NCBI RefSeq assembly: GCF_031312535.1
Contig: NZ_CP133594.1
Span: forward strand, 1,674,001-1,738,000
DNA: 64,000 nucleotides
Direction: 5' to 3'
Source: Methanolobus mangrovi
GTDB lineage: Archaea; Halobacteriota; Methanosarcinia; Methanosarcinales; Methanosarcinaceae
In this document: positions 2,204 through 61,565 of the stretch, in pieces
Layout of the letters: each line of letters begins with the position of its first letter
Numbering within the stretch: the stretch's first letter is position 1
Program-made: the position numbers and the translations under genes
The notes under the pieces: model-generated
Databases searched by the model: none
What the model was told of the DNA's origin: nothing
Seen by the model: the letters and a program-made list of their open reading frames with translations, nothing else

Positions 2204-5200
2204 ATGAAGATCCGCAGCAAAACCCTGGCAATCCTTGGAATCACCTTTTTCTGCATGTTTGCACTTTTAACAATTACTACCGGACAAATAATAGAGAGTG
2301 GTTTCAACCATCTGGAAGTGGAAGAGATCACTAGAAATGTTGAAAGGGTGAACGCTACCATTGACTCACGGATCGATCACCTGGTGATACTGGCAAATGA
2401 CTGGGGACACTGGGATGACTCTTATTATTTTCTGCTTGGGGAAGATGAAGATTATGTGTACAACAATCTCGACATAAACTCCATGACAAACCTGCAGGTA
2501 GACATGATGTTATATTATGATGCTACCGGTGAATTGTACTCCGCTGTCGGGACGGATCTTGATGCTCATGAAGAAAAAGAAGTATCGACTTCAGTGCTTG
2601 ACTATCTAGGCTCCAATGAGATATTGTTCTCCGGACCTTCTGAACCCGTATATGTAAAAGGTATCATCAATACTCCCGAGGGTACCTTGCTCATAGCATC
2701 TAACCCTATAACACAAAGCATAGACTACGAAACTATAGTCGGCACCCTTGTTGTTGGAAGATATGTGGATGAAGCTTTAATAGCAGAATTACAGGACACA
2801 ACCAAATTACATATTGTTCTGGAAGAAATTGGACCAGATGAGTTGATCCAAAAGAATGAGATGGCTACGCTTTCGCAGGAAAATAGCATATTAAACATTG
2901 AATATGTGAATGATGACGCAGTTATTGGAACCACACTGCTAAACGATATTAACGGAGACAATGCAGTCTCACTGAAAGTTGAAATGACAAGGGAAATATA
3001 CCAGCAGGGGCAATCTGTGATTGCATACCTTTTCTATGCCATACTCTTCCTTGGAATCGTCTACGGTATTGTCCTGATATTCTCCCTTGAGAATTATGTG
3101 TTGTCACGCCTATCTGTCCTCAGCAGGAATCTGACTGCAATCACTAAGGATGGAACATTATCTTCACGTGTTAAGATGGATGGTAATGATGAACTGTACG
3201 ACCTCTCCGAAAACATCAACTATATGCTGGAGACACTTGAGAATAAGGAGAACAAGATACAACAGGCTGAACAGATAAGCCGGAAGAGGATGGAATCCAT
3301 TGTTGAGAACATAATCAGTGGTGTTCTTGTCATTGATGAACAGACACACCAGATCACCGATGTAAATCCAGTCGCTGAAGAGATAATTGGCCTGCCCAGA
3401 AACAAAATTGTGGGCAATTTGTGCCACGAATTCGTATGTCCTGCAGAAAAAGGAAAGTGCCCCATAAGCGACCTTGGAAAAACAGTGAATCGATCAGAAC
3501 GCATCCTGATCAATGCAAAGGGAGAGAAGATACCAATCCTTAAATCCGTAGCAACTGTGGCCCTGTCGGACAAAAAGTACCTGATTGAGAGTTTTGTGGA
3601 CCTGAGTAAGATAAAGGAAGCTGAAAACGAGATAATTCAGGCTAAAATTGTGGCAGAATCTGCAAACCGGGCAAAGAGTGATTTCCTTGCAACCATGAGC
3701 CATGAACTTCGCACACCCCTTAATTCTATAATAGGATTCTCAGACCTGATCCTGGAAGGGAATGCAGGGGAATTGACCGATCCACAGAGCAGGTATATTA
3801 CAAACATATCTACAAGTGGGAAACATTTACTTTCACTAATAAACAATGTGCTTGACCTTTCTAAGATCGAAGCAGGAAAAATGGAGCTGTATTTGGAGGA
3901 GTTCCCGGTTGAAGAGACCCTTATTGAAGTAAAACAACTGATGACAACTCTCGCTAACAAAAAAGGAATCACTGTCAATTATAATGTAGATCAGCCGGTG
4001 ACGATGATATGCGCTGATAAGATCAAGTTGAAGCAGATACTTTACAATCTTATCAGTAATGCCATCAAATTTACCCCGCAACACGGCACAATAGACGTTA
4101 ATGTTGAGGCATTAGAAAATATTGTCAGATTCTCTGTTAAGGATAATGGCATTGGAATCTCGGAAGAGGGTCTTGCCAGGCTATTCCAGCCTTTCACCCA
4201 ACTGGACTCTGCCGCTAACAGGCAATACGAGGGAAGCGGACTTGGACTTACCCTTGTAAAGAGATTTGTGGAACTGCATAAAGGAAGAATATGGGTCGAA
4301 AGTGAGCCAGGAAAAAGTACCACCTTTACTTTTGAATTGCCATTAGATGAAAACATAGATAGTCCTGACAAAAGAGACAATGCTCCTGAAAATGTAGATA
4401 GCATCCCTGATTCTCCTGATGATGCACCAGCACACATCATCCCCGAGAACAGCACAGGTGATGAAGCACTCATACTTGTTGTGGAAGATGACGAGACATC
4501 CAGGGAATTGCTTGAGGAGACGTTGAAATATGCAGGTTATCGCGTGATCTCTACATCCAAAGGTGAAGAAGCCATAAAACTTGCTGAAAATATGAATCCC
4601 TTTGCCATAACTCTCGATGTGATGATGCCAGGGATGGATGGATGGGATGTGCTCAAAGAGTTAAAAAGAAAAGAAAGCACGAGACACATACCTGTTGTTA
4701 TCACTACAATGCTTGATGATCGCAAGATTGGTACAGAATTGGGAGCAGAGGAACACTTCATCAAGCCGGTGGAGAAAGAGATACTTATAGCAACACTCGA
4801 AAAAATAAGAAGCTATAATTCAAAATCATCCTTCAGGGTACTGGTAGTGGATGATGAGAAAATTGCTGTTGAGATGATGGAAGAGATGCTTAAAGATACA
4901 AATTACGATGTACTGACAGCCTATGGTGGACAGGAAGCCATTGTTACCGCTTTAAATGACCATCCTGATGTCATCGTGCTTGACCTTATGATGCCAAACG
5001 TGACCGGCTATGATGTTATTAAAGCACTGAAGGAAAATAAAGGAACAAAAGACATCCCCATTATTATCTGCACAGCCAGGCATCTGGAGAGAGAAGACGA
5101 AGAAGCCTTAAAAGGACAGATATCAGGTTTTATGCAGAAGGGCGAGTTCAGCAAAGAGAAACTGATCTCATGCATCAGGAATCTCCATAAAAATGGAAAC

Positions 5201-5224
5201 CAGAATGATTCCGACAACACATAG
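2204..5224 (+). CDS. Membrane hybrid histidine kinase: CHASE4-HAMP-PAS-HisKA-HATPase-REC-REC
   Basis: A 1006-residue sensor. A membrane helix (about 8-30) is followed by an extracytoplasmic CHASE4-like domain (about 45-255; NDWGHWDDSYYF is typical), a second helix (about 272-297), HAMP (about 298-350), a PAS domain (about 362-470), HisKA with the phospho-acceptor His500 in FLATMSHELRTPLN, and a HATPase with N (LISNAIKF), G1 (DNGIGIS) and G2 (GSGLGLTL) boxes. Two receiver domains end the protein, with phospho-acceptor aspartates at about 805 and 927. The PAS domain holds three cysteines (Cys407, Cys412, Cys419) that could bind a cofactor or respond to redox state; that is inference. GAGGAATCAA before the ATG supports the start. 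There is no DNA-binding output and no cognate regulator beside it. The signal is unknown. It converges with a chemoreceptor gene. Confidence 0.92.
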   Translation: MKIRSKTLAILGITFFCMFALLTITTGQIIESGFNHLEVEEITRNVERVNATIDSRIDHLVILANDWGHWDDSYYFLLGEDEDYVYNNLDINSMTNLQVDMMLYYDATGELYSAVGTDLDAHEEKEVSTSVLDYLGSNEILFSGPSEPVYVKGIINTPEGTLLIASNPITQSIDYETIVGTLVVGRYVDEALIAELQDTTKLHIVLEEIGPDELIQKNEMATLSQENSILNIEYVNDDAVIGTTLLNDINGDNAVSLKVEMTREIYQQGQSVIAYLFYAILFLGIVYGIVLIFSLENYVLSRLSVLSRNLTAITKDGTLSSRVKMDGNDELYDLSENINYMLETLENKENKIQQAEQISRKRMESIVENIISGVLVIDEQTHQITDVNPVAEEIIGLPRNKIVGNLCHEFVCPAEKGKCPISDLGKTVNRSERILINAKGEKIPILKSVATVALSDKKYLIESFVDLSKIKEAENEIIQAKIVAESANRAKSDFLATMSHELRTPLNSIIGFSDLILEGNAGELTDPQSRYITNISTSGKHLLSLINNVLDLSKIEAGKMELYLEEFPVEETLIEVKQLMTTLANKKGITVNYNVDQPVTMICADKIKLKQILYNLISNAIKFTPQHGTIDVNVEALENIVRFSVKDNGIGISEEGLARLFQPFTQLDSAANRQYEGSGLGLTLVKRFVELHKGRIWVESEPGKSTTFTFELPLDENIDSPDKRDNAPENVDSIPDSPDDAPAHIIPENSTGDEALILVVEDDETSRELLEETLKYAGYRVISTSKGEEAIKLAENMNPFAITLDVMMPGMDGWDVLKELKRKESTRHIPVVITTMLDDRKIGTELGAEEHFIKPVEKEILIATLEKIRSYNSKSSFRVLVVDDEKIAVEMMEEMLKDTNYDVLTAYGGQEAIVTALNDHPDVIVLDLMMPNVTGYDVIKALKENKGTKDIPIIICTARHLEREDEEALKGQISGFMQKGEFSKEKLISCIRNLHKNGNQNDSDNT

Positions 5225-5453
5225 AACATTAAATGATGATATGGGAACCTGTATGAATACTGTATTAATGCAGGTTAATCATTTTTTTGAAACTGCATGT
5301 GAGAGATATTTGTACAAGCCGTCTGCGTTTTAAAGATATTTGCAAGTAGTTGCTTTAGAAAACACAAAAGAAACGTAGCATTATAAATTAAAGAGCAGGT
5401 GCCAGAGTAAACCCTCACACCTCACGTAAATTAAAAATGAACAGGCAGGATGC

Positions 5454-57472: not shown

Positions 57473-58054
57473 TCAGTACACCCAGACAACCCGGGGTTCA
57501 TTCTTAGGCGGTTCTTCAGGTTCCTTTACTGAATACCCGAACACAATAGGTGCAATGACCCTGTAATCAGGTGTTATGCCAAGTTCTTCCAGTATCTCTG
57601 GATTATCCTGAATGAAACATCCGGTTCCTACCCAGCAACTGCTGATGCCCATGGAATGTGCTGCAAGCATCATATTCTCAGCACACAGGGAACAATCATA
57701 ATCTGTGGTAAAACCTGCATTGTGTCCAAGAACGATAATAAGTGCAGGAGCATCGTAGAAGATGTTGAACTCTTCTCTTGCAAGTTCTTTTTTGAATCCC
57801 ATTGCAGATTCATCGGTCGTCTCTTCCAGTTGTCCCAGAAGACGTGGCTTGCAATGATCGGACATCCTTTTCATCATTTCACGGTTCTTTACCACGACAA
57901 AGAACCATGGCTGACTGTTAAAACCGGAAGGAGCATGAATTCCGGCATCGATTATTGTCTTGATGTCTTCGTCACTTACTTCCCTGTCAATATATTCCAT
58001 GACACTTCTTCGTGTCTTTATATTTTCAATTACGCTGTTTTCTTCCACTCCCAT
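57473..58054 (-). CDS. Nitroreductase-family flavoprotein
   Basis: A 193-residue FMN-dependent nitroreductase-like protein. The family blocks KTRRSVMEYIDREVSDED, AGIHAPSGFNSQPWFFVVV and MLAAHSMGISSCWVG are present. Proteins of this type in anaerobes reduce quinones, nitro compounds or act as flavin oxidases; the substrate is not known. It ends the six-gene redox operon (three Rieske proteins, glutaredoxin-like, FTR-type reductase). ATG 58054 after GGGAGTG; the reading to 58063 starts within that site. The next gene upstream ends 12 bases away. Confidence 0.86.
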   Translation of the reverse strand: MGVEENSVIENIKTRRSVMEYIDREVSDEDIKTIIDAGIHAPSGFNSQPWFFVVVKNREMMKRMSDHCKPRLLGQLEETTDESAMGFKKELAREEFNIFYDAPALIIVLGHNAGFTTDYDCSLCAENMMLAAHSMGISSCWVGTGCFIQDNPEILEELGITPDYRVIAPIVFGYSVKEPEEPPKNEPRVVWVY

Positions 58055-58066
58055 TATAAACACTCC

Positions 58067-58408
58067 CTATTTTTTTGATTCGAGGAATTCTTTTAGCGAT
58101 ATCTGCATCAGACTGTCAGGGTCATCAACATCCTTATGCACATACATGCCACACCAGCAGCGTTTCATGGCATCATAGTGCTCCCTGTGAAAAGGTATGC
58201 ATGGACATACAAGTTTCATATCATATTCCCTTTCACCTGTAAGACCCTGGCATGGACAAAAAGGATGTCCTTTCTCCTTCTCGATATTGACCTCCTGCTC
58301 AAGCAGGAAATCAACCAATTCCTCATCAGGACTGAATTTGTAACCCAGATGATCCACAACCTTTGCAAACATCGTCCTGAGCTGTTCTTTTCGCTTTTCA
58401 GTATCCAT
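58067..58408 (-). CDS. Ferredoxin:thioredoxin reductase catalytic (beta) subunit
   Basis: A 113-residue FTR catalytic-subunit protein. The six cysteines that form the [4Fe-4S] cluster and redox-active disulfide appear as CPC (51-53), CPC (68-70) and CWC (84-86). Such proteins take electrons from ferredoxin and reduce a thioredoxin-type disulfide. The usual third motif is CHC; here it is CWC, so the residue that normally polarises the site (His) is replaced. There is no variable (alpha) subunit nearby. It lies six bases after the glutaredoxin-like gene, which is likely to be its partner. Confidence 0.9.
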   Translation of the reverse strand: MDTEKRKEQLRTMFAKVVDHLGYKFSPDEELVDFLLEQEVNIEKEKGHPFCPCQGLTGEREYDMKLVCPCIPFHREHYDAMKRCWCGMYVHKDVDDPDSLMQISLKEFLESKK

Positions 58409-58414
58409 TTGAAA

Positions 58415-58663
58415 TCACAACCCCAGTAATTTAGAATACTTATCCGGGTTGTACCCTACAACCACATCCCCACCTATTTTCACAAATGGAAACGACATTT
58501 CCGAACCATGTGCCAGACAATCTGCCCTGATAGCTTTTTTAGTACTATCATCTGCCTTATCATAATCTGTATACTCAAATGGAACATCATGTTCCCTGAA
58601 GAACTTCTTTGCCCTCATACACCAGGGACAGGTACTGAGGGTGTACATCACAACTTTTTTCAT
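58415..58663 (-). CDS. Glutaredoxin-like redoxin
   Basis: An 82-residue glutaredoxin/NrdH-type protein. The active site is TCPWC (Cys12, Cys15) after the first beta strand, then cis-proline in SFPFVKIGGDVVVG and GYNPDKYSKLLG. CPWC differs from the CPYC of classical glutaredoxins, so it may be reduced by the adjacent ferredoxin-dependent enzyme and not by glutathione, which methanogens lack. It overlaps the preceding Rieske gene by four bases. Confidence 0.92.
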   Translation of the reverse strand: MKKVVMYTLSTCPWCMRAKKFFREHDVPFEYTDYDKADDSTKKAIRADCLAHGSEMSFPFVKIGGDVVVGYNPDKYSKLLGL

Positions 58664-58989
58664 TTGTCTGCACCTTCCAGATTTACAAAAACACTGCCTT
58701 CCATAACTTTTATCTCATAGAGAGGGACCTTGATCTCTCTTGCATCAAGGAATTCACCGTTGCGAATATCAAATTTCCAGTCATGACAGGGACATTTGAT
58801 CACGTATTGTTCAAGAGTTCCCTTTGAAAGAGGACACTCCATATGTGGACATTTATTGGACATTGCAAAAAAGTCACCATCGATCCTGAGAACCAGCACT
58901 TTGTTACCTTCGATCAGTAAGGGCTTCTTTTCACCATCATTAAGGTCATCTGCCTTCAATGCAAATATCCAGTTGTTTTCCTGTTTCAT
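58660..58989 (-). CDS. Rieske-type [2Fe-2S] protein, third of three
   Basis: A 109-residue soluble Rieske protein. Cluster ligands are Cys47-x-His49 and Cys66-x-x-His69 (CPHMEC and CPCHDW). Cys52 and Cys68 are at the positions that form the structural disulfide in high-potential Rieske proteins of cytochrome bc complexes, whereas oxygenase-type Rieske ferredoxins lack them. ATG 58989, with GGGA before it, aligns with the starts of its two paralogues; the GTG at 59010 would add seven residues. Overlaps the glutaredoxin gene by four bases. It may be an electron carrier for the nitroreductase. Confidence 0.9.
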   Translation of the reverse strand: MKQENNWIFALKADDLNDGEKKPLLIEGNKVLVLRIDGDFFAMSNKCPHMECPLSKGTLEQYVIKCPCHDWKFDIRNGEFLDAREIKVPLYEIKVMEGSVFVNLEGADK

Positions 58990-59006
58990 AGATATATCCC
59001 TGCTAC

Positions 59007-59312
59007 TCACACAAGAACGGAAATACTTCCATCCATCACCTGTGTTTCATATACGTTTACCTTTATCTTGTCTGATGCCACATATGCTCCGGTTCGAAGG
59101 TCAAAAGTCCAGCTATGGCAGGAACATTTGATAGAGTGATCCAGAAGAATACCACCCTGAAGAGGACAGTTCATATGAGGACAACGATTCTCAATGGCAA
59201 ATATTTCCCCGTCAATGCGAATTAGGAGAATTCTTGAACCTCCTACTTCTACTGGTTTCATTTTGCCTTCTTTCACATCATTTTCGCTTGCAGCTACAGT
59301 CCATGAAGTCAT
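59007..59312 (-). CDS. Rieske-type [2Fe-2S] protein, second of three
   Basis: A 101-residue soluble Rieske protein with ligands Cys44-x-His46 and Cys63-x-x-His66. The extra pair Cys49 and Cys65 (CPHMNC and CSCHSW) is present, as in the two other paralogues. No membrane helix or signal is seen, so it is cytosolic. It is 24 bases after the first Rieske gene. The copies differ along most of their length and are old duplicates, not recent ones. Confidence 0.9.
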   Translation of the reverse strand: MTSWTVAASENDVKEGKMKPVEVGGSRILLIRIDGEIFAIENRCPHMNCPLQGGILLDHSIKCSCHSWTFDLRTGAYVASDKIKVNVYETQVMDGSISVLV

Positions 59313-59336
59313 TCCGATCCTTCCTTTCTCCAGGGT

Positions 59337-59651
59337 TTAAAGAAGGACAAGTATGTCTCCGCCTTCAATCTTATTCTCGAAGACTGAAAGAGCTTCGTCC
59401 TTGTCTCCAAGATACTTACCGGTCCTTATGTCGTATTCCCAACCATGGCATGGGCATTTGAGCACATATTCTTCACTGAAAGTACCTTTTGATAAACGAC
59501 AGCCCATATGTTTGCATTTCCCAAAGAGGGAATATACTGCATCATTCTTCCTGATCAGAATCACAGGTGTCCCTTTTACCCTTGCAAACTCCATACTGCC
59601 TTCTTTAAGATCATCGTCTTTTATAGCAAAGAACCAGGATTTTTCCGGCAT
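59337..59651 (-). CDS. Rieske-type [2Fe-2S] protein, first of three
   Basis: A 104-residue soluble Rieske protein that heads the operon. Ligands are Cys46-x-His48 and Cys66-x-x-His69 (CKHMGC and CPCHGW). Cys51 and Cys68 again form the possible disulfide pair. Bis-His cluster ligation gives potentials higher than ferredoxin; a near disulfide raises it further. GGGAG before the ATG lies inside an inverted repeat (separate entry). It is divergent from nothing but follows the MATE gene on the same strand by about 75 bases and probably has its own promoter. Confidence 0.9.
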   Translation of the reverse strand: MPEKSWFFAIKDDDLKEGSMEFARVKGTPVILIRKNDAVYSLFGKCKHMGCRLSKGTFSEEYVLKCPCHGWEYDIRTGKYLGDKDEALSVFENKIEGGDILVLL

Positions 59652-59657
59652 TTATAT

Positions 59658-59678
59658 CTCCCATAAATAATCAGGGAG
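59658..59678 (-). promoter_or_regulatory. Inverted repeat at the start of the Rieske operon
   Basis: CTCCC and GGGAG are 5-bp arms 11 bases apart, with the right arm (minus strand) serving as the ribosome site of the first Rieske gene. A TATA-like TTTATATT is about 30 bases upstream of the ATG's site. If the mRNA includes both arms it would hide the ribosome site; if not, the repeat is a DNA operator at the start point. Confidence 0.35.
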
Positions 59679-59727
59679 TCAAAAATATAAATAGTTGTCG
59701 TGAAATAAAAAAAGAGAGCAAGGTCAT

Positions 59728-61086
59728 TTATGGTTGCTCTTGCATTTGAAAATAGCGATATTCCCTCCAGACAAGGAACATACTCAAAAGAGCAGCCAGC
59801 AGATCCGATATTGGAAATGCCATCCATACACCGGTAAGGTCGAAGTAATACGGGAGAAGGATCACCAGTGGAATAAGGAACAATATCTGACGGGACATTG
59901 AAAGGAAGAAGGATGGCTTTGCTTTTCCCATTGATTGGAAGAATGTTGTACCAATAACATTCAGACCGATCAACGGACTTGCCAGTACCATTATCCTCAG
60001 AGCAGATGCTCCACTGCCGATAAGATCGGCATCGGAGCTGAACATACTAAAGAATGTGCCTGGAAATGCTGAAAGCAAAAGAAAACCTACCAAACCAAAA
60101 AAGGTAGTGATCATTAGTGATGTCTTAACAGACTCATTAACTCTTGCATAGTTTTCTGCTCCATAATTATAACCGACAATTGGCTGCAGACCATGAGATA
60201 TACCTATTATAGGCATAAGAATCAACATAAGTAATTTGATGGCAACACCAAATACTGCTATTGAAAGATCGCCTCCGTAAATTGCAAGTACATTATTTAG
60301 TACAAGCATCATGAAACTGTTTGATGCACCCATTACAAAGGAACCAAAACCTATCAATGATATTTCCTTGATCATATTGAATTTTGGAGCAAAATTTGAT
60401 AATTTGATCTTGACCTGACTCTTCCCACCCAGATAATAATACACTAGATAAAGAGTTCCTGCCAGTTGTGCAAGTACGGTTGCAAGAGCTGCACCTTTTA
60501 CACCCATGCCAAAACCGAACATTAGTATCGCATCAAGGAAGATGTTCAGTACTCCTGAAAAGACCATGTTGTTCATGGCAACTTTTGAGTTTCCTTCAGC
60601 TCTTACAAGATTATTCAACACAAAACCAAAAGTGAATGCCAGTGTACCCTGCAGAATCACAACAGAGTATTCCTTTGCATAGAATAGATTGTCAACAGTA
60701 GCACCGAACAGGTTCAGTACTGCATCTACATTAAAGAAAAAGAGGATCTGAAAAATCACACTAAGTATCAGTGTATAGGTAAAGACATTCCCGAGAGTTT
60801 TTTCAGCTTTGTTCACATCCCCGGAACCAAGCATACGGGATATCACCGAAGAACCACCTACGCCTATTCCAATGGAAATTGCCATCATAAGCATCTGTAA
60901 AGGAAAAGCAACAGCTACACCTGCAATTCCAAGTACACTCTGCTCACCCAATGCCCTTCCAACAAAGAATGTGTCCACCAGGTTATAGAATGCCTGTACA
61001 AGAAGTCCTATTATAGCAGGCGTTGATAGTTTCCACAATAGCTTATTAATGCTCTCCGTACCTAAAAACTCACTTTTATTGTTCAT
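59728..61086 (-). CDS. MATE-family multidrug/Na+ efflux transporter
   Basis: A 452-residue, 12-helix MATE exporter. The two halves show the usual NKLLWKLSTPAIIGLLVQAFYN at the start, VDTFFVGRALG, GIAGVAVAFPLQMLMMAISIG and the second-half block GISHGLQPIVGYNYGA. It would expel cationic drugs or metabolites in exchange for Na+ or H+. It follows the MarR regulator gene by 41 bases on the same strand, so the pair is an operon controlled from the tandem operators upstream of marR. Confidence 0.93.
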   Translation of the reverse strand: MNNKSEFLGTESINKLLWKLSTPAIIGLLVQAFYNLVDTFFVGRALGEQSVLGIAGVAVAFPLQMLMMAISIGIGVGGSSVISRMLGSGDVNKAEKTLGNVFTYTLILSVIFQILFFFNVDAVLNLFGATVDNLFYAKEYSVVILQGTLAFTFGFVLNNLVRAEGNSKVAMNNMVFSGVLNIFLDAILMFGFGMGVKGAALATVLAQLAGTLYLVYYYLGGKSQVKIKLSNFAPKFNMIKEISLIGFGSFVMGASNSFMMLVLNNVLAIYGGDLSIAVFGVAIKLLMLILMPIIGISHGLQPIVGYNYGAENYARVNESVKTSLMITTFFGLVGFLLLSAFPGTFFSMFSSDADLIGSGASALRIMVLASPLIGLNVIGTTFFQSMGKAKPSFFLSMSRQILFLIPLVILLPYYFDLTGVWMAFPISDLLAALLSMFLVWREYRYFQMQEQP

Positions 61087-61127
61087 GACGTTATCCTGAT
61101 ATCAAGTAATCATTTTTCATTTCTTTT

Positions 61128-61565
61128 TTATGACTGTCTGTCAAATTCCATAAGGGTATTTTTTGTTTTATCGAGAAGCTTTCTGAATATCTGTTCCTCT
61201 TCATCTGACAGGTCTGAAAGCAGAATTCCATTCCATTCCTGAAGAGCAGCGTTTATCGCCGGAACAACTTCCCTGCCTTTGTCCGAGATAAAAACCCGAT
61301 ATATGCGTTTATCATTCTCATCCCTCTCACGATAGACATAGCCTTCTTTTTCAAGTGCCGTAATGACCCTGGTTGCCGTAGCTTTGCTAAACATAAGATA
61401 GCGTGCCAGACTTTCCTGAGAACAACCGTCTTTATGAGAGAGAGTCAGCAGGAATGCAAACATTGGACCTTTCAGCTTGTATGATTCAAGCGCATTCTCG
61501 ATGTAATGGTGATTGTGCGAAAAGATGTATGCGATCTTAGCACCGATTCTTTCAGACTGCTTCAT
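61128..61565 (-). CDS. MarR-family transcriptional regulator
   Basis: A 145-residue MarR-type winged-helix regulator. The DNA-recognition helix is in GCSQESLARYLMFSKATATRVITALEKEGYVYRERDENDKRIYRVFIS, with the wing at its end, and dimerisation helices at both ends. It is expected to repress its own gene and the MATE exporter until a ligand is bound. Two back-to-back palindromes between its TATA box and ATG are probably its sites. Cysteine content is minimal (one Cys in the recognition region), so it is not an obvious redox sensor. Confidence 0.93.
   Translation of the reverse strand: MKQSERIGAKIAYIFSHNHHYIENALESYKLKGPMFAFLLTLSHKDGCSQESLARYLMFSKATATRVITALEKEGYVYRERDENDKRIYRVFISDKGREVVPAINAALQEWNGILLSDLSDEEEQIFRKLLDKTKNTLMEFDRQS

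Follow-up and report, generated by a model that had tools for sequence, protein, structure and literature searches.

Three genes for small Rieske proteins in Methanolobus mangrovi form a cassette with the genes of a glutaredoxin-like redoxin and of a predicted ferredoxin-dependent disulfide reductase of the FTR catalytic subunit type (FTR), and this gene set recurs in both archaea and bacteria, where its catalytic and ligand residues are intact, its linkage is close to exclusive, and an extra cysteine pair in the Rieske protein is conserved. The best explanation, which is given about an even chance, is that the Rieske protein, redoxin, and FTR make up one dedicated thiol-redox unit, in which the redoxin and FTR would control the Rieske disulfide. 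This is the leading idea because the cysteine pair is conserved and the genes are linked in many phyla, and the recurrence of the cassette as a single unit in methanogens and many unrelated bacteria suggests that the disulfide may undergo active opening and closing instead of serving only as a scaffold. The linkage would also fit a system in which all the proteins act on a shared client, as well as one in which the redoxin reduces the Rieske protein.

All the parts of the cassette belong to known families, and the cassette was not found described as a unit. No paper on it was found in the open-access literature searched, although it may still have been described elsewhere.

Gene Organization of the Cassette

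The cassette lies on the minus strand at 57473-59651 of the window (the whole stretch of DNA analyzed, 64,000 nucleotides in length), which belongs to a closed genome of 2.62 Mb. The reading of the open reading frames (ORFs) recovered six open frames in the order Rieske1, Rieske2, Rieske3, CPWC redoxin, FTR, and nitroreductase, and their Pfam domains (Rieske, PF00355, in the first three, with E 1e-18 to 1e-21, followed by glutaredoxin, 1e-11, FeThRed_B, 6e-26, and nitroreductase, 3e-29) agree with the six-gene redox operon proposed in an earlier, sequence-only reading of this DNA. The features of the locus, from upstream to downstream, are as follows:

59728..61565, minus strand: genes of a MATE efflux protein and a MarR-type regulator, immediately upstream of the cassette; common in Methanolobus only
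59685..59702, minus strand: conserved promoter element CACGACAACTATTTATAT, TATA box and upstream flank; ends 34 bases before the first Rieske gene
59337..59651, minus strand: Rieske protein 1, 104 aa; ligands C46, H48, C66, H69; extra pair C51/C68; Pfam
59007..59312, minus strand: Rieske protein 2, 101 aa; extra pair C49/C65; Pfam
58660..59010, minus strand: Rieske protein 3, 116 aa if started at GTG, 109 aa if started at the likelier ATG (58989); extra pair C52/C68
58415..58663, minus strand: glutaredoxin-like redoxin, 82 aa; active site CPWC; PF00462, E 1e-11
58067..58408, minus strand: predicted ferredoxin-dependent disulfide reductase, FTR catalytic subunit type, 113 aa; CPC ... CPC ... 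CWC
57473..58063, minus strand: nitroreductase-family flavoprotein, 196 aa; optional cassette neighbor

The three extra cysteine pairs were present exactly as the sequence-only reading had described them, together with the Cys2His2 ligands, in all three Rieske proteins, and all six catalytic and cluster cysteines are present in the FTR of the window. The four-base overlap that had been noted between Rieske3 and the redoxin is real (58660-58663), whereas the one reported between Rieske2 and Rieske3 exists only if translation begins at the GTG (59010), and gives way to a gap of 17 bases with the ATG start. The ATG is the likelier of the two, because it matches the starts of the relatives, and the C52/C68 numbering of Rieske3 is counted from it. 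Other lineages have a single cassette Rieske, to which Rieske3 corresponds.

Distribution of the Cassette

The distribution was surveyed by comparing an alignment of FTR alone with 84,980 genomes, one per species, which avoids choosing loci by their Rieske gene. The patterns were built from Methanosarcinaceae FTRs, and the survey covers this FTR subfamily only. It recovered 66 loci in about 11 phyla, although many of the genomes are metagenome-assembled, and single taxon assignments may be wrong. The archaeal loci belong to Methanolobus, Methanomethylovorans, Methanohalobium, Methanosalsum, Methanoperedens, and Bathyarchaeota, while the bacterial ones are labeled as Bacillota, Lithacetigenota, Actinomycetota, Chloroflexota, Fibrobacterota, Bacteroidota, Myxococcota, Spirochaetota, and Ignavibacteriota.

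Linkage was counted in the 64 of these 66 loci that had at least 1 kb of upstream DNA. A disulfide-type Rieske gene was located by script within 1 kb upstream of the FTR in 59 of the 64, and in 60 once L134, where the Rieske gene has an odd start (like its relative L047), had been read by hand and found to encode both cysteines. The redoxin lay within 500 bases of the FTR in 59/64 loci by the same approach; it occupies an overlapping ORF in L156 and sits some kilobases upstream in L168 and L170. The Rieske gene of L121 is in place, with one ligand cysteine changed to serine, and an intact Rieske gene is truly absent from only three of the 64 loci (L154, L173, and the fragment L177). The expectation of the sequence-only reading that the genes would be linked elsewhere is thus borne out in many phyla, and on these counts the cassette is far beyond a local coincidence.

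The pairwise distances of the Rieske protein, redoxin, and FTR also correlate (r 0.65-0.70, permutation p 0.001, n 44), which shows that the three share a history. At one Methanoperedens locus (L173, Mnv1, 4600-5250), they have decayed jointly, leaving a Rieske remnant, a redoxin in which CPWC has become DPWS, and a truncated FTR, which counts in favor of the disulfide model. At another locus, L154, only remnants of the Rieske gene and redoxin persist, with the FTR and a second Rieske gene being kept.

Within Methanolobus, the six genes followed an identical order in all nine members of the first sample, and every copy in a larger set was arranged as Rieske-redoxin-FTR, with one to three Rieske genes. 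Some Methanolobus genomes have a second, single-Rieske cassette beside the main one (L089 in G125 and L106 in G119).

The linkage was also approached from the opposite side, by searching with a model of the cassette Rieske (A2). Each of 18 genomes outside the family yielded one strong match, the cassette copy, at 118-162 bits, with the next match at no more than 72 bits; the weaker matches were mostly the second cassette Rieske. Among the 301 genomes of one carrier's phylum, the only strong match was in the carrier (150 bits vs. 86 for the next), and the redoxin and FTR lay beside this one match alone among 30 Rieske loci from that phylum. Neither gene occurred within the flanks read at the remaining 29 loci, where the pair-bearing Rieske proteins have the respiratory CHGS form. 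In the phylum of the host, the strong matches were the cassette copies and a fourth Methanolobus Rieske, with weaker matches to Methanosarcina orphans. The existence of such pair-bearing orphans (the fourth copy of the host and the Methanosarcina copies) counts against the disulfide model. The claim that Rieske proteins are rare in methanogens needs to be narrowed, given that the domain was found in 23 of 29 sampled genomes of the family, and holds for the rest of the class, with only three of 32 genomes.

The Redoxin and the FTR

The CPC-CPC-CxC motif is kept in all 62 of the testable full-length cassette FTRs, and the closest relatives of the FTR of the window are those of Methanolobus. The host genome has three FTR genes, and the cassette FTR falls in a clade of its own (100/98 support), apart from the other two, which distinguishes it from FDR-type systems. 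One of these two is a family-wide type that is found beside a thioredoxin gene in several relatives, and the other lies by a flavodiiron-like gene. Stops inside the matches to these genes raised the possibility of selenocysteine, which was rejected, as the ORFs end normally upstream of those stops.

The cassette shares with the plant FTR and the Methanosarcina FDR the CPC-CPC-CxC catalytic family, a partner redoxin, and ferredoxin as the presumed donor, but differs in its dedicated CPWC glutaredoxin-like partner and near-obligate Rieske gene. The solved structure 7pwe has redoxin-like and FTR-like domains in a single chain.

The redoxin is the sole match of its kind in the host genome, and the dithiol CxxC site is kept in nearly all cassette redoxins. 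This retention argues against the redoxin being a factor for the assembly of the Rieske clusters or the maturation of the proteins, an explanation that would account for the tight coupling of the Rieske and redoxin genes and recalls the glutaredoxins that carry clusters elsewhere, but leaves the dedicated FTR unexplained. Glutaredoxins that carry clusters need glutathione, which is not known to occur in methanogens, and this explanation is regarded as quite improbable.

A further alternative is that the redoxin and FTR serve a class III ribonucleotide reductase, with the Rieske genes as bystanders. The enzyme of Methanosarcina barkeri takes its electrons from an FTR-like enzyme, according to work that is cited in PMC6262447, and this NrdH-FDR system resembles the cassette in combining a redoxin with an FTR-like enzyme in a methanogen. 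In the host, however, the cassette and its redoxin are distant from both class III nrdD genes, one of which has a different redoxin gene, of the NrdH-like type, directly upstream. The M. barkeri type of route would thus not explain the cassette pair, and a ribonucleotide reductase role for the cassette redoxin is disfavored. With the Rieske linkage near-universal, this alternative is hardly credible.

The Bacillota-type redoxins have CFHC, CYHC, or CFYC in place of CPWC (L139, L143, L145, L146, L155, L158, L163, L166, and L171).

The Rieske Proteins as a Distinct Subfamily

A diverse alignment of cassette Rieske proteins shows no variation at C52, at C68, or at the four ligands, and the conservation of the pair in orthologues, on which the sequence-only reading had depended, was confirmed. 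The 66 loci provided 87 cassette Rieske proteins with both cysteines, and all 87 have a tryptophan two residues after the last histidine ligand. Respiratory Rieske proteins have a serine here, which, together with a tyrosine (CHGSxY), raises the potential of the cluster (PMC12954380). At the tyrosine position of this pair, the same 87 proteins have phenylalanine (60) or tyrosine (27). The cassette Rieske proteins are, on these residues, a distinct subfamily, because the tryptophan is universal where the respiratory proteins have the potential-raising serine.

The AlphaFold2 model of Rieske3 (pLDDT 93.8) has the Rieske ferredoxin fold, and its best matches are the Rieske ferredoxins (BphA3, 2yvj, with Z 18.4 and an rmsd of 1.6 over 104 residues), with a lower score for a Rieske domain of a photosynthetic cytochrome complex (Z 13.5). 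From this model, the cassette Rieske looks like a ferredoxin-type Rieske to which a respiratory-type cysteine pair has been added. The suggestion that the disulfide raises the Rieske potential is therefore doubtful here: a high potential is not secure, because the tuning serine of respiratory Rieske proteins is replaced by tryptophan and the fold is of the ferredoxin type.

The respiratory Rieske proteins (bc1, b6f, and arsenite oxidase) resemble those of the cassette in their second cysteine pair (CxHxxC ... CxCH), but the latter are small, soluble, and anchorless, with the fold nearest to the Rieske ferredoxins. A single-domain Rieske of 101-116 aa has no room for a membrane anchor, and none of the six genes encodes a cytochrome b. 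The Rieske ferredoxins of the aromatic-ring dioxygenases share the size and fold of the cassette proteins; unlike these, they lack the extra pair, and the cassette has no oxygenase genes, its neighbors being the redoxin, FTR, and nitroreductase. The signature CxHxxC ... CxCHxW beside a redoxin and FTR marks proteins that are now named only “Rieske 2Fe-2S domain-containing”.

This likeness of fold and sequence to soluble Rieske ferredoxins, which donate electrons to enzymes, underlies the main alternative to disulfide control, that is, that the Rieske proteins are the one-electron donors or acceptors of the cassette, replacing ferredoxin in a chain from Rieske to FTR, redoxin, and client, with the pair only stabilizing the cluster. 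A second Rieske gene, without the pair, often lies directly 3' of the FTR, which counts in favor of this alternative. Known FTR-type enzymes, however, take their electrons from low-potential ferredoxin, below the potential of most Rieske clusters, and the pair is invariant beside the redoxin, even though ferredoxin-type Rieske proteins manage without it. This alternative is considered unlikely.

The pair-less second Rieske was found at 27 of the 64 loci, and disulfide control thus cannot account for the cassette on its own. This second Rieske is carried by Methanoperedens, Bathyarchaeota, and the majority of the bacteria. The Methanosarcinaceae cassettes lack it, and many have extra disulfide-type copies instead, while the Bacillota-type cassettes have neither. 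A paralogue of Rieske1 in one locus (L110 1715, on a contig shared with L129 3752) has lost the second extra cysteine, which is replaced by glycine, while the other two Rieske proteins keep their pairs, a case that also counts against the disulfide model.

The fourth small Rieske of the host (G000:C1:692750-693067; L052, L212) lies approximately 1.04 Mb from the cassette, and has the cysteine pair and CHNW. Two Methanomethylovorans-type loci (L107 and L109) have this type within the operon, and the fourth Rieske has therefore probably moved out of the cassette. In a Methanosarcina-type genus (g6; L026-L028), proteins of approximately 517 aa with the respiratory-type motif CxHMGC ... CPCHGS are unlinked to the cassette.

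A Proposed Mechanism for Disulfide Control

Under disulfide control by the redoxin and FTR, electrons would pass one at a time from reduced ferredoxin to the [4Fe-4S]/disulfide center of the FTR, which would then reduce the CPWC redoxin. The redoxin would, in turn, reduce the disulfide that the two extra cysteines would form in the cell, next to the [2Fe-2S] cluster of the Rieske protein, with the flow presumably running from ferredoxin to the Rieske disulfide. The disulfide may re-form under oxidizing or electrophile stress. The Rieske protein would act as a one-electron carrier, whose potential, partner docking, or cluster stability could be switched by the two-electron disulfide step. In a wider proposal, which falls somewhat short of probable, the cassette is a widespread module whose Rieske protein combines one-electron transfer with a reversible two-electron disulfide switch, the latter being set by a dedicated redoxin that ferredoxin drives.

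The idea of disulfide control has a precedent in the thylakoid lumen, since the chloroplast protein HCF164, which is thioredoxin-like, interacts with the disulfide-bearing Rieske protein of b6f (PMC3813922), although HCF164 is membrane-bound, belongs to an unrelated locus, and is tied to the assembly of the complex. The Rieske disulfide is usually viewed as structural, although it may serve as a physiological redox switch. The cassette is a natural, soluble system of three proteins for testing the switching of the Rieske disulfide directly, and cultured species of Methanolobus carry it. FTR-type systems beyond photosynthesis also gain a candidate class of clients from it. If the switch reading is true, the charge state of ferredoxin would be coupled directly to Rieske function in an anaerobic cytoplasm.

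Neighboring Genes

The clustering of the cassette neighborhoods found no constant further partner gene. The nitroreductase is a recurrent but optional neighbor, present next to the cassettes of Methanolobus and Methanomethylovorans and at three actinobacterial loci, and the MATE and MarR genes lie upstream in most Methanolobus. A zinc-binding dehydrogenase gene is found directly upstream of one Chloroflexi cassette, and sequence clustering placed its relatives upstream of the Methanoperedens cassettes.

These inconstant neighbors offer a hint of electrophile or redox stress, and could be accommodated by a module for electrophile/quinone or oxygen stress, in which the redoxin, FTR, and flavoenzyme would repair or detoxify, and the Rieske proteins would carry electrons to the nitroreductase or to quinone-reductase-type partners. 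The adjacent nitroreductase, the dehydrogenase, the MATE and MarR genes of Methanolobus, and a GCS2 gene by one cassette would all be consistent with such a module, but most of the cassettes lack these neighbors. The module is rated as improbable as an explanation in its own right, and is compatible with, rather than exclusive of, control of the Rieske disulfide. The GCS2 (glutamate-cysteine ligase) gene lies just downstream of the cassette at L161 (5858-7009), where the redoxin reads CPGC.

The position beside nif had been taken as a hint of oxygen or redox protection, which loses its force in the wider comparison. About two thirds of the main Methanolobus copies and two of the Methanomethylovorans copies have nif genes at the 3' end of the cassette, in every case in convergent orientation, and these genes were seen at no other cassette locus examined. 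A general link with nif was rejected on these grounds.

The Promoter Region

Nearly every Methanolobus cassette has the consensus CACGACAA(C/T)TATTTATA upstream of its first Rieske gene, and the same element, with small changes downstream, is present in Methanomethylovorans. In both genera, it is kept even where the upstream gene is different, and it has a single match in the window at up to three mismatches, against 0.06 expected. This conservation marks a dedicated promoter of the cassette in the Methanolobus group.

With up to one mismatch, the element occurs at two sites in the genome, that is, at the cassette and, with one mismatch, approximately 100 bases upstream of the fourth Rieske. 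Of two weaker sites, one falls within a coding region and the other precedes a tRNA. The site before the fourth Rieske is absent from most other Methanolobus fourth copies, and a wider regulon based on this element is not supported.

The stretch from the TATA box to the start codon, within 59652-59702 on the minus strand, holds a dyad, CTCCC-N11-GGGAG, which may be an operator over the transcription start. Its arms are changed but similar in Methanomethylovorans (ACCC...GGGGT), and the right arm doubles as the ribosome-binding site.
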